From: Microcaldota archaeon
Lineage (GTDB): Archaea > Micrarchaeota > Micrarchaeia > Micrarchaeales > CABMGC01
Assembly: GCA_028866995.1 (NCBI GenBank)
Contig: JAGWHD010000001.1
Location: 529,030-593,029, forward strand
DNA: 64,000 bases
Direction of reading: 5' to 3'
Part shown: in pieces, positions 10,189-13,335 of the stretch
Numbering within the stretch: position 1 is the stretch's first letter
Layout of the letters: the number at the start of each line of letters is the position of its first letter
Position numbers and translations under genes: made by a program
The notes under the pieces: model-generated
Seen by the model: only the letters and a program-made list of their open reading frames with translations
What the model was told of the DNA's origin: nothing
Database searches by the model: none

Positions 10189-10473
10189 ATGGCAACTGAC
10201 ATGACGAAGATAAGCGAAGCGCTGTGGAAGGACCCGAGCAACGCAAACTGGAAAAGGTTGGGGAGTGCGCTGCCCAAGAGCGGCATAAAGTACTACAAGG
10301 TGTTCTACCAGCAGGGCAAGGTCTCAAAGACCGAGGACCTCAGGGATGCTTACGTGGAGCTGTATGATTCTAAGGAGAAGCTCGTGGCAAAGGTGCCGGT
10401 ATACGAGAAGAAGGCTAAGGGAATAAGGGGAGCGACGATATACCTTGTCGGGCTTCTCAACACGAACAAATAG
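10189..10473 (+). CDS. small protein of unknown function in the sulfate-activation operon
   Basis: A 94-residue soluble protein with no transmembrane helix. The mix of charged and aromatic residues (GIKYYKVFYQ, AYVELYDSKEKLVAKVPVYEKKAKGIRGATIYLVG) suggests a compact mostly-beta fold. It lies between the RHH regulator and cysD with gaps of 17 and 8 nt, so co-transcription is likely. An ATG at 10201 (residue 5) is an alternative start. Family not recognised. Confidence 0.6.
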   Translation: MATDMTKISEALWKDPSNANWKRLGSALPKSGIKYYKVFYQQGKVSKTEDLRDAYVELYDSKEKLVAKVPVYEKKAKGIRGATIYLVGLLNTNK

Positions 10474-10481
10474 GCGAGAAT

Positions 10482-11270
10482 ATGATACAACAGGATCTTA
10501 AGGAACTGGAGGAGCGTTCGATCTACATAATACGCGAGGCCACGACGAAGTTCGACAATGTTGCGGCTCTCTGGAGCATGGGCAAGGACTCTACCACAAT
10601 GATAGCCCTTGCAAGAAAGGCGTTCCTTGGAAAGGTTCCTTTCCCGGTGATCCACATTGACAACGGGGTTGATTTTCCAGAGACATACAAGTTCAGACAG
10701 GAGCTCGCCAAGAAGTGGAAGCTGAACCTGATAGTCGCTGAGAGCGAGATAAAGCCCGAAATGTCAGGATTCGCATGCTGCGGGGAGAACAAGACCGTTG
10801 CGCTGAAGAAGGTCATGAAGGACCACGGCTTCGACGCGCTGATAGTCTCGATAAGAAGAGATGAACACGGCATAAGGGCGAAAGAGAGGTACATGAGCCC
10901 TAGGGACAAGGAGTTCAAGTGGGACTTCAAGAACCAGCCTGCCGAGATATGGGACGACTACTCGAGCAAGCTCGACGCCAAAGGCCACGTCAGGATACAT
11001 CCTCTGCTTGACTGGAACGAGGTTGACATATGGGGGTACATCAAAAAAGAGAAAATACCAATAAACCCACTGTATTATTCAAGAAACGGGTTAAGATACA
11101 GGAGCCTAGGTTGCACACACTGCACAGTGCCAATTAAATCTAAGGCAAAGACAATAGATGACATAATAAAAGAATTAGTGGTAACCAAAGTAGAAGAAAG
11201 ATCTGGAAGAGAACAGGATAAAGAAAAAATTTATGTAATGGAGAAATTACGAGCATTGGGATATATGTGA
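10482..11270 (+). CDS. cysD: sulfate adenylyltransferase subunit 2, with a foreign-looking 3' part
   Basis: A 262-residue protein of the PAPS-reductase/ATP-PPase family. CysD makes adenosine phosphosulfate from ATP and sulfate, driven by the GTPase CysN encoded at 12109. Visible are the PP-loop SMGKDSTTM (32-40), HIDNGVDFPET, RRDEHGIRAKER and the conserved tail motif RYRSLGCTHCT. Codons 1 to about 187 have host-like composition (lines of 50-55% GC, AGG and CTG codons). From about 11040 to the stop the gene falls to roughly one third GC by hand count and switches to AGA, TTA, GAA and AAA codons, matching the endonuclease gene that starts 4 nt after the stop. The frame is intact and the protein looks functional. 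The last ~25 residues resemble the tail of the RHH protein. Confidence 0.85.
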   Translation: MIQQDLKELEERSIYIIREATTKFDNVAALWSMGKDSTTMIALARKAFLGKVPFPVIHIDNGVDFPETYKFRQELAKKWKLNLIVAESEIKPEMSGFACCGENKTVALKKVMKDHGFDALIVSIRRDEHGIRAKERYMSPRDKEFKWDFKNQPAEIWDDYSSKLDAKGHVRIHPLLDWNEVDIWGYIKKEKIPINPLYYSRNGLRYRSLGCTHCTVPIKSKAKTIDDIIKELVVTKVEERSGREQDKEKIYVMEKLRALGYM

Positions 11271-12128
11271 TTTTATGGACTTAAATATACTTGCCTATAC
11301 TGCTGGTTTTTTCGATGCAGAAGGCAGTATAACTCTTAAAAAATTCGAAACCAACACAAATCCTAGATATCAAATAGACGTAAGGTTATCCAGTCAAAAT
11401 AAAACTGTATTATACGAAATTAAAAAATATTTTTCAAATAAAGGCTCGATAAGATCAAAAAGCGATAATAAATCGGTTTTAGAATTAGTTTATACTGCAA
11501 AACACGCACTATACTTTCTGCAGCAAATCGAACCATTCCTAATACTTAAAAAACACGAAACTAATTTAGCAATAAAATTTGAAAAAACCCTAGTTAGAAT
11601 CTATGGCCATACCCTGCCATCGATTGTTATATATCAAAGAGAACAAATGAAGAATGAAATGGCATATATACATAAAAACAGGGGAAAATTTGGTAAGATA
11701 GACAAAAAGTATCTATTGCCATACTTTGCGGGTTTAGTCGATGGAGATGGTTACATAGGTATTTTACATAAAAATACTCTTACACTAACAGTAGTTAGTA
11801 AATATCAGAAATTTCTCACATATCTATACAAACAAATTAGTTCTGGTTTTATCACGCCTAACAGTAATGCTTATCACTGGACGATATCAAGTAAAGGTGC
11901 CAAAGTTTTATTGCAAAAAATTACACCATACCTAATTATAAAGAAACCAGAAGCAAATCTTGCAATAACTTTTCAAAGCTCAATAAATAGCCTAAATAGA
12001 AGACCTCTAGATAAAAAGACTATGCTGAAGAGGCAACACCTAATAGAATCTATCAACAAGATGCATTTAGGAAAAGGGCAGGCCAAATACTATCATTGAG
12101 GAAGTAAAATGTTAATTAATCGAATAAC
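11040..12128 (+). mobile_element. homing-endonuclease unit carrying a replacement cysD tail
   Basis: A sharply bounded AT-rich tract covers the last ~75 codons of cysD, the whole LAGLIDADG gene and the first few codons of cysN (through TTAATTAATCGA), with GC-rich host sequence on both sides. The compositional block crosses two gene boundaries, so it looks like one imported unit rather than a simple insertion between genes. No intron, intein splice motifs or terminal repeats are visible. Confidence 0.55.
11275..12099 (+). CDS. LAGLIDADG homing endonuclease, free-standing
   Basis: A 274-residue double-motif endonuclease expected to cut a long specific DNA site and spread by break repair. The two dodecapeptide motifs are AYTAGFFDAEG (7-17) and PYFAGLVDGDG (about 149-159), each ending in the acidic metal ligand, and each is followed by a similar ~120-residue half ending in LILKKHETNLAI or LIIKKPEANLAI, so the monomer is pseudo-twofold. 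There are no intein residues at the ends and it is not in frame with cysD. Composition is very AT-rich, unlike neighbours. It starts 4 nt after cysD and ends 9 nt before cysN. Confidence 0.92.
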   Translation: MDLNILAYTAGFFDAEGSITLKKFETNTNPRYQIDVRLSSQNKTVLYEIKKYFSNKGSIRSKSDNKSVLELVYTAKHALYFLQQIEPFLILKKHETNLAIKFEKTLVRIYGHTLPSIVIYQREQMKNEMAYIHKNRGKFGKIDKKYLLPYFAGLVDGDGYIGILHKNTLTLTVVSKYQKFLTYLYKQISSGFITPNSNAYHWTISSKGAKVLLQKITPYLIIKKPEANLAITFQSSINSLNRRPLDKKTMLKRQHLIESINKMHLGKGQAKYYH

Positions 12129-13335
12129 GCTGCTTGGGCACAAGGACCACGGCAAGTCGACCCTCATAGGGAACCTCCTGATACAGACAGGAACCGCGAG
12201 CGAACAGAGGATAAACGACGCGAAGAAGACGAGCCAGAAGCTGGGGAGGCAGTTCGAGCCGGGGTTCATACTGGACAGCTTCGAGGAGGAGAGGGAAGGA
12301 GGGCTCACGATAGACACGACCAGGGTACAGATAAACTACAAGAACATAGGTTTCGAGTTCATAGACGTTCCCGGTCACGAAGAACTCATAAAGAACATGA
12401 TGAGCGGCGCGTCGTACGCGAAGTTCGCGATACTCCTTGTCTCTGCGAAGAGCGATGAAGGGATAAGACCGCAGACCAAGAGGCACCTCTTCCTTGCGAA
12501 GATGATGGGCATAAACAGGATAATAATAGCCGTAAACAAGATGGACTATGCGAACTACCACAGAGAGGTGTTCGATAGCATCAAGAGCGACATAGAGGAT
12601 TTCCTGCAGAAGATAGGGTTCGACAGGAAGCAGGCGTATTTCATACCTATATCGGCTTACACTGCTGACAACCTGGTCAAGATGTCCAAGAAGATGCCTT
12701 GGTACAAGGGTTCCACTCTCATGGAAGCGATGAAGGACGCGGTTGAGACCGAAGGAAAGGAAACCGACGGCAAGCTAAGGATTGTCGTGCAGGGAACATT
12801 GCCGACCGGCAAGAAGATACTGACTACTGGAAAGGTCATAAGCGGAACGATAAAGAGCGGGGCCAAGGTATCCATAGTGCCTGCAAAGATGAACGTGATC
12901 GCAAAGGAGATCTTCGTCAAGGGGAAGAAGCAGAAGCTTGCCAAGCAGGGAGAGAATGTAGCTTTGTCATTCGATAAGGTGCCCGACGGAAGCCTTAGGG
13001 GATCCGTCATCTACGGCTCTGGCTCCGCAGCGAAACCTACGAAGAGAGTCGATTCCCTCATATTCTTCACGAAGAACGTAGTCAAGCCGATAACGATAAA
13101 GATAAACGGCAACGAGATAGCGTGCGACGAAGCGAAGATAAAGGATGTCATAGACACCGGCACAGGAAACAAGATGAACGCTGGCTATGATAGGACGCTC
13201 AATGCTGCTAATGTGGAGCTCAGGCTAAGCAAAGAGGTTGTCGCGGAGCCGTTCGATACCTCTGCGGAGCTTGGAAGGTTCGTCGTCTACGAAGGAAGGG
13301 AGTTCGTGGGCCTGGGCATAGTAAAAGGCGCTTAA
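12109..13335 (+). CDS. cysN: sulfate adenylyltransferase subunit 1 (CysN-like GTPase)
   Basis: A 408-residue translation-factor-like GTPase. Seen are G1 GHKDHGKST (10-18), switch I EEEREGGLTID, G3 DVPGHE, G4 NKMD, and two C-terminal beta-barrel domains. The stretch QTKRHLFLAKMMGINRIIIAVNKMD is closer to CysN than to EF-1A, and the adjacent CysD supports the role: CysN hydrolyses GTP to drive APS formation. An EF-1A paralogue is the main alternative. No APS kinase or reductase is present in the window, so the fate of APS is unknown. The first codons are AT-rich, as if inside the imported tract. Confidence 0.82.
   Translation: MLINRITLLGHKDHGKSTLIGNLLIQTGTASEQRINDAKKTSQKLGRQFEPGFILDSFEEEREGGLTIDTTRVQINYKNIGFEFIDVPGHEELIKNMMSGASYAKFAILLVSAKSDEGIRPQTKRHLFLAKMMGINRIIIAVNKMDYANYHREVFDSIKSDIEDFLQKIGFDRKQAYFIPISAYTADNLVKMSKKMPWYKGSTLMEAMKDAVETEGKETDGKLRIVVQGTLPTGKKILTTGKVISGTIKSGAKVSIVPAKMNVIAKEIFVKGKKQKLAKQGENVALSFDKVPDGSLRGSVIYGSGSAAKPTKRVDSLIFFTKNVVKPITIKINGNEIACDEAKIKDVIDTGTGNKMNAGYDRTLNAANVELRLSKEVVAEPFDTSAELGRFVVYEGREFVGLGIVKGA

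Follow-up and report, generated by a model that had tools for sequence, protein, structure and literature searches.

Several families of predicted free-standing homing endonucleases at one cysD junction in Micrarchaeota, and the altered cysD ends beside them

Background

Judged from gene content across one order of the archaeal phylum Micrarchaeota, the junction between cysD and the cysN-like gene behind it is a hot spot for several unrelated families of free-standing homing endonucleases. Their genes, intact or as remnants, are found with sequence-based support at 15 of 123 loci, and the cysD genes of these carriers often change composition toward the 3' end. The most extreme case lies in the window, the stretch of 64,000 nt analysed here, where a LAGLIDADG gene directly follows a cysD with an AT-rich tail. 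The probable explanation is intronless homing of this free-standing gene into the cysD/cysN-like junction, in which a related donor rich in A+T would have supplied the flanking end of cysD by co-conversion.

Most of what is known about intronless homing comes from phages. In phage T4, free-standing endonucleases cut a neighbouring gene in genomes without them, and when the break is repaired their own gene is copied along with flanking markers (PMC2988022). SegF, SegG, MobE and others of T4 resemble the cysD case in being optional genes between two conserved genes and absent from relatives, in the co-conversion of flanking markers during homing, and in that several families of endonucleases occur within a single genome lineage (PMC2988022). 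The two differ in that T4 is a phage with GIY-YIG and HNH enzymes, whereas the cysD loci lie in cellular archaeal chromosomes and hold LAGLIDADG, NUMOD3-Vsr and HNH-like enzymes, many unrelated kinds of which meet at one junction and for which cutting is presumed. In fungal mitochondria, mobile endonuclease ORFs bring a foreign C-terminus to their host gene (atp6 of Allomyces; atp6, atp9, cox2 and nad3 of Glomus) and usually leave the native one behind (PMC3630166). There too the endonuclease gene directly follows a gene whose 3' end diverges in DNA while the protein is kept, but the duplicate C-terminus is usual and the inserted one phylogenetically foreign, whereas cysD has neither a duplicate nor a tree conflict; the likeness to the Allomyces atp6 insertion drawn in the preliminary description of the locus thus holds for the endonuclease behind an altered 3' end and fails for the displaced tail and the trees.

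Three further systems are comparable in part. The free-standing F-CphI of cyanophage S-PM2 stands beside psbA, a strongly conserved metabolic gene and its target, but it is an Endo VII family enzyme and psbA is protected by an intron (PMC6083498), which cysD does not have. A gene of the Haloferax glycosylation island is likewise an archaeal chromosomal free-standing LAGLIDADG gene for which gene conversion was proposed, but it belongs to PF03161 and does not lie behind a conserved gene, and no recurrent hot spot or 3'-end shift was described (PMC5867893). The LAGLIDADG genes of archaeal group I introns, including those of Micrarchaeota, share superfamily and phylum with the window gene but sit in rRNA introns (PMC6125680). 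Our literature search brought up no earlier account of an endonuclease at cysD, nor of a free-standing one in Micrarchaeota. The enzymes and the homing process are of known kinds while the setting is new; as far as the literature was searched, this applies to the cysD hot spot, to the number of unrelated families that share a single junction of the chromosome, and to the link with altered 3' ends of an archaeal gene.

One chromosomal junction in these tiny archaea, invaded by unrelated families in states from intact to remnant, offers a natural series for the study of invasion, decay and loss without intron or intein. If the cysD ends were co-converted, they are also a record of gene flow between archaeal lineages, and a warning that a conserved gene may have a 3' end whose history differs from that of its other parts.

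Genomes and definitions

The window comes from a Microcaldota archaeon (phylum Micrarchaeota; GCA_028866995.1, contig JAGWHD010000001.1, positions 529,030-593,029 of the forward strand), and positions are given in window numbering. G and L numbers denote the genomes and loci of the order that were compared. The comparison covered 123 cysD genes, 120 cysD/cysN-like junctions for the gap lengths and 164 genomes for NUMOD3; the order also includes the public assembly UBA8261, a relative of the window genome. GC3 is the G+C content at third codon positions. Two loci with doubtful endonucleases, G067 (a 153-nt gap with a LAGLIDADG-like motif recognised by eye) and G101, were kept outside the 15 carriers.

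Table 1. Features around the cysD/cysN-like junction of the window
Feature	Positions	Strand	Remarks
94-aa ORF	10189..10473	+	precedes cysD; conserved; homologue before cysD in G004 (L031)
cysD	10482-11270	+	262 codons, PF01507; NCBIfam CysD subfamily model over its cut-off
cysD codons 1-187	10482..11042	+	host composition, GC3 0.711
cysD codons 188-262 and stop	11043..11270	+	AT-rich, GC3 0.293; presumed co-conversion tract
cysD codons 208-215 (SLGCTHCT)	11103..11126	+	candidate target region, suggested by DNA conservation
Free-standing LAGLIDADG homing endonuclease gene	11275..12099	+	274 aa, two motifs; identified from sequence
LAGLIDADG motif 1, AGFFDAEGS	11302..11328	+	read from sequence
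LAGLIDADG motif 2, AGLVDGDGY	11728..11754	+	read from sequence
cysN-like gene, codons 1-10	12109..12138	+	AT-rich, GC3 0.25
cysN-like GTPase gene	12109..13335	+	408 aa; GC3 0.694 past codon 10

Results

The window locus

The gene behind cysD, whose ATG lies 4 nt past the cysD stop as had been described, is assigned to the LAGLIDADG homing endonucleases. Its product matches PF00961 with 40.5 bits (cut-off 23.1, E 5.4e-10) and PF14528 with 29.2 bits (cut-off 22.5, E 1.2e-6), resembles the chains of I-CreI and I-MsoI, and carries both motifs intact in one chain; their acidic residues are kept in the orthologue of G147. An AlphaFold model had a pLDDT of 40 and was set aside. The reading frames of cysD and of the cysN-like gene are both unbroken at the junction, and an Rfam search of the locus gave 0 matches, so a group I intron or intein endonuclease was ruled out, in agreement with the preliminary description of an element that leaves its host gene whole. 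In viral contigs only distant LAGLIDADG relatives were found, none of them adjoining cysD. The conserved ORF upstream of cysD matched no Pfam or NCBIfam family over its cut-off. As for the downstream gene, its position is as described, but its naming as cysN needs a small correction: EF-1alpha models score better than CysN models and both stay under their cut-offs; the product may have a role other than that of a sulfate adenylyltransferase subunit.

The composition shift reported near 11040 is borne out by a change-point analysis, which places the best single break at codon 188 (position 11043; 2LLR 38.8, permutation p 0.001), where GC3 falls from 0.711 to 0.293. Also as described, the AT-rich sequence runs on through the endonuclease gene (GC3 0.243) and enters the cysN-like gene, where GC3 rises from 0.25 in codons 1-10 to 1.0 in codons 11-20, which puts the end of the block near 12135. 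The block thus measures about 1.1 kb, reaching from the 3' part of cysD across the endonuclease gene to just inside the cysN-like gene. Among the 123 cysD genes the window has the largest drop (z -5.2; others with mean -0.02 and sd 0.077). The transition is either a step or a ramp across codons 188-220, as a step and a sigmoid fit about equally and both better than a smooth decay (AIC 308.0 for the step vs 313.8 for exponential decay toward the gene end). The RYRSLGC motif does sit within the AT-rich part, and a 22-nt stretch in codons 208-215 ranks first in the tail and third in the gene for DNA conservation.

Endonuclease genes at the junction across the order

The two genes are usually close together, with a median gap of 10 nt and at most 50 nt at 98 of 120 junctions. 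The endonucleases found between them are LAGLIDADG enzymes of two kinds, NUMOD3+Vsr proteins and an HNH-like kind. The window type recurs at the same junction, as an orthologue with 46% identity, in another family of the order (G147), while G076 keeps a remnant, the first 53 residues, whose start overlaps the cysD stop. The second kind of LAGLIDADG gene is that of G047. A NUMOD3+Vsr gene is intact in G075; its homologous 5' part lies directly behind cysD in G028, shorter forms occur at the junctions of G096, G158, G150 and G015, and NUMOD3 remnants at those of G103 and G079. The HNH-like kind is represented by a 311-aa protein of G064 with zinc-binding repeats (the Pfam HNH match is weak, E 0.03), by its homologue in G069, split between two contigs that break off within cysD and within cysN, respectively, and by a remnant in G084. 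NUMOD3 was found in seven of the 164 genomes, in six of them at this junction. Carrier status is scattered on the tree of cysD heads, requiring at least 14 changes.

Altered cysD ends in carriers

A significant GC3 drop at the cysD 3' end occurs in 7 of the 15 firm carriers vs 4 of the 108 other genomes (Fisher p 2e-5; 1e-4 without the window). When breakpoints in the last 15 codons are dropped, the counts become 4/15 vs 4/108 (p 0.008; 0.03 without the window). Tail-minus-head GC3 is also lower in carriers, with a Mann-Whitney p of 0.0016 without the window, the two doubtful loci being taken as carriers in this comparison. Independent and well-supported tree pairs agree in direction, the four usable ones being too few for significance. 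Breakpoints among the genomes with a shift range from codon 122 to codon 248, a spread as expected of conversion tracts, and several carriers (G047, G015, G158) have no cysD shift. Strong drops without an endonuclease were seen in G161 (L099) and G127 (L076), which may be former carriers.

Origin of the AT-rich tail

The preliminary description held that the tail had been replaced by foreign DNA, that it would be missing from relatives without the endonuclease, and that the two parts of CysD would give conflicting phylogenies. The same-genus relative G001, whose CysD is 92% identical, has neither the endonuclease nor a composition break, and 36 nt separate its cysD from the cysN-like gene; the AT-rich tail is accordingly not common to the two. 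An alignment of this 36-nt gap to the endonuclease start was no better than shuffled sequence (p 0.12), and a relic was rejected. The expected conflict was not found: in protein trees of codons 1-187 and of codons 188-262 the window adjoins G001, and in a within-genus regression the divergence of their tails matches the vertical-descent expectation from the head (z -0.07). A foreign tail is thus rejected as far as phylogeny goes, while the composition step and the link with carriers speak for co-conversion; the proposed replacement is supported in part. Given the vertical-like divergence from G001, a close donor is possible and a distant one is not.

Synonymous-codon sharing between the window and G001 is at chance in the tail (z -0.05) vs z 2.3 in the head, and raw DNA identity of the tail is highest to G035 (0.79, vs 0.74 to G001). 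The AT-rich genus g14, to which G035 belongs, was nevertheless rejected as donor: once codon usage was corrected for, its excess came down to a z of about 1, so that the similarity is mostly one of common composition. G067, G101, G099 and G062 match the tail at more synonymous sites than expected (z 2.7-3.2), which, with 120 comparisons made, is no more than suggestive. Tails of same-type carriers from different genera are no more alike than expected (p 0.46); tails common to such carriers were not found save in one exceptional pair, G069 and G084 (z about 3). No donor of the window tail was found, and no displaced second cysD tail in any cysD/cysN-like gap examined. A donor near the genus with AT-rich codon usage would fit the tree, divergence, synonymous-site and cross-carrier results alike.

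Under intronless homing, the endonuclease would presumably cut cysD or the junction in genomes without its gene, and repair from a donor would copy the gene along with flanking donor DNA. Codons 188-262 of cysD and the first cysN-like codons would then be co-converted donor DNA, and the putative donor, with the direction of transfer likewise presumed, would be a related archaeon whose codon usage is AT-rich. The carrier could be protected either by the insertion, which splits a target at the junction, or by sequence differences in the tail that block cleavage. An optional gene between conserved genes, whole neighbours, altered flanks with variable limits, and the lack of a displaced tail and of an intron fit this process. 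The preliminary description had instead proposed one mobile unit of tail and endonuclease, in the style of fungal atp6, where the native tail is cut and a recoded, uncuttable but functional tail is supplied whose recoding protects the carrier. The common composition of tail and endonuclease gene (GC3 0.29 and 0.24), the strongly conserved DNA in codons 208-215 and the chance-level synonymous sharing of the tail with G001 all suit such a unit. We still consider it unlikely, since no displaced native tail lies downstream of any endonuclease, the breakpoints of carriers differ instead of falling at one cut site, and several carriers have no recoded tail; besides, recoding may protect poorly, as LAGLIDADG enzymes directed at coding DNA often tolerate changes at third positions. 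It is doubtful, too, that archaea have a class of mobile genes that pair an endonuclease with a recoded 3' end of the very gene it targets, in which the tail keeps the protein working and blocks cleavage and unrelated families have converged on cysD.

The native tail might also have turned AT-rich in place, for instance by repeated breakage and mutagenic repair beside the endonuclease or by a local mutation bias, and its protein divergence, equal to the vertical-descent expectation, together with a change that is possibly a ramp over codons 188-220, is what such drift would give. Yet a step describes the change better than an exponential decay, the block ends abruptly at codon 10 of the cysN-like gene, and a mutational gradient ought to be symmetrical about the endonuclease gene, which leaves drift in place quite improbable. 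That the break is an artefact of assembly or binning deserves mention for a draft genome of 55 contigs, but there is hardly any chance of it: frame, length and conserved residues of cysD continue through the break, the contig runs on upstream of the site for 540 kb or more, and the independently assembled UBA8261 has the same endonuclease in the same place.

Related genes and other contents

The seventh NUMOD3 is a remnant that begins 4 nt past the stop codon of a PCNA gene, so named from its sequence (L187, G133 contig 64, about 1306-1710); in view of it, similar invasions may affect other conserved genes at their 3' ends. In G004 (L031), the 94-aa ORF and cysD are separated by a LAGLIDADG gene, directly upstream of cysD, that shares 40% identity with the enzyme of G047; this placement suggests that cysD itself, beyond its junction, may attract endonuclease genes. 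The long gaps of L145 (G072) and L109 (G137) have other contents: an ORF that reads by eye as TnpB-like and runs on the opposite strand, and a DUF218 protein. Near an EF-1alpha-like gene at L156 and L157 (G117 and G145) there are HNH-like proteins related to that of G064.
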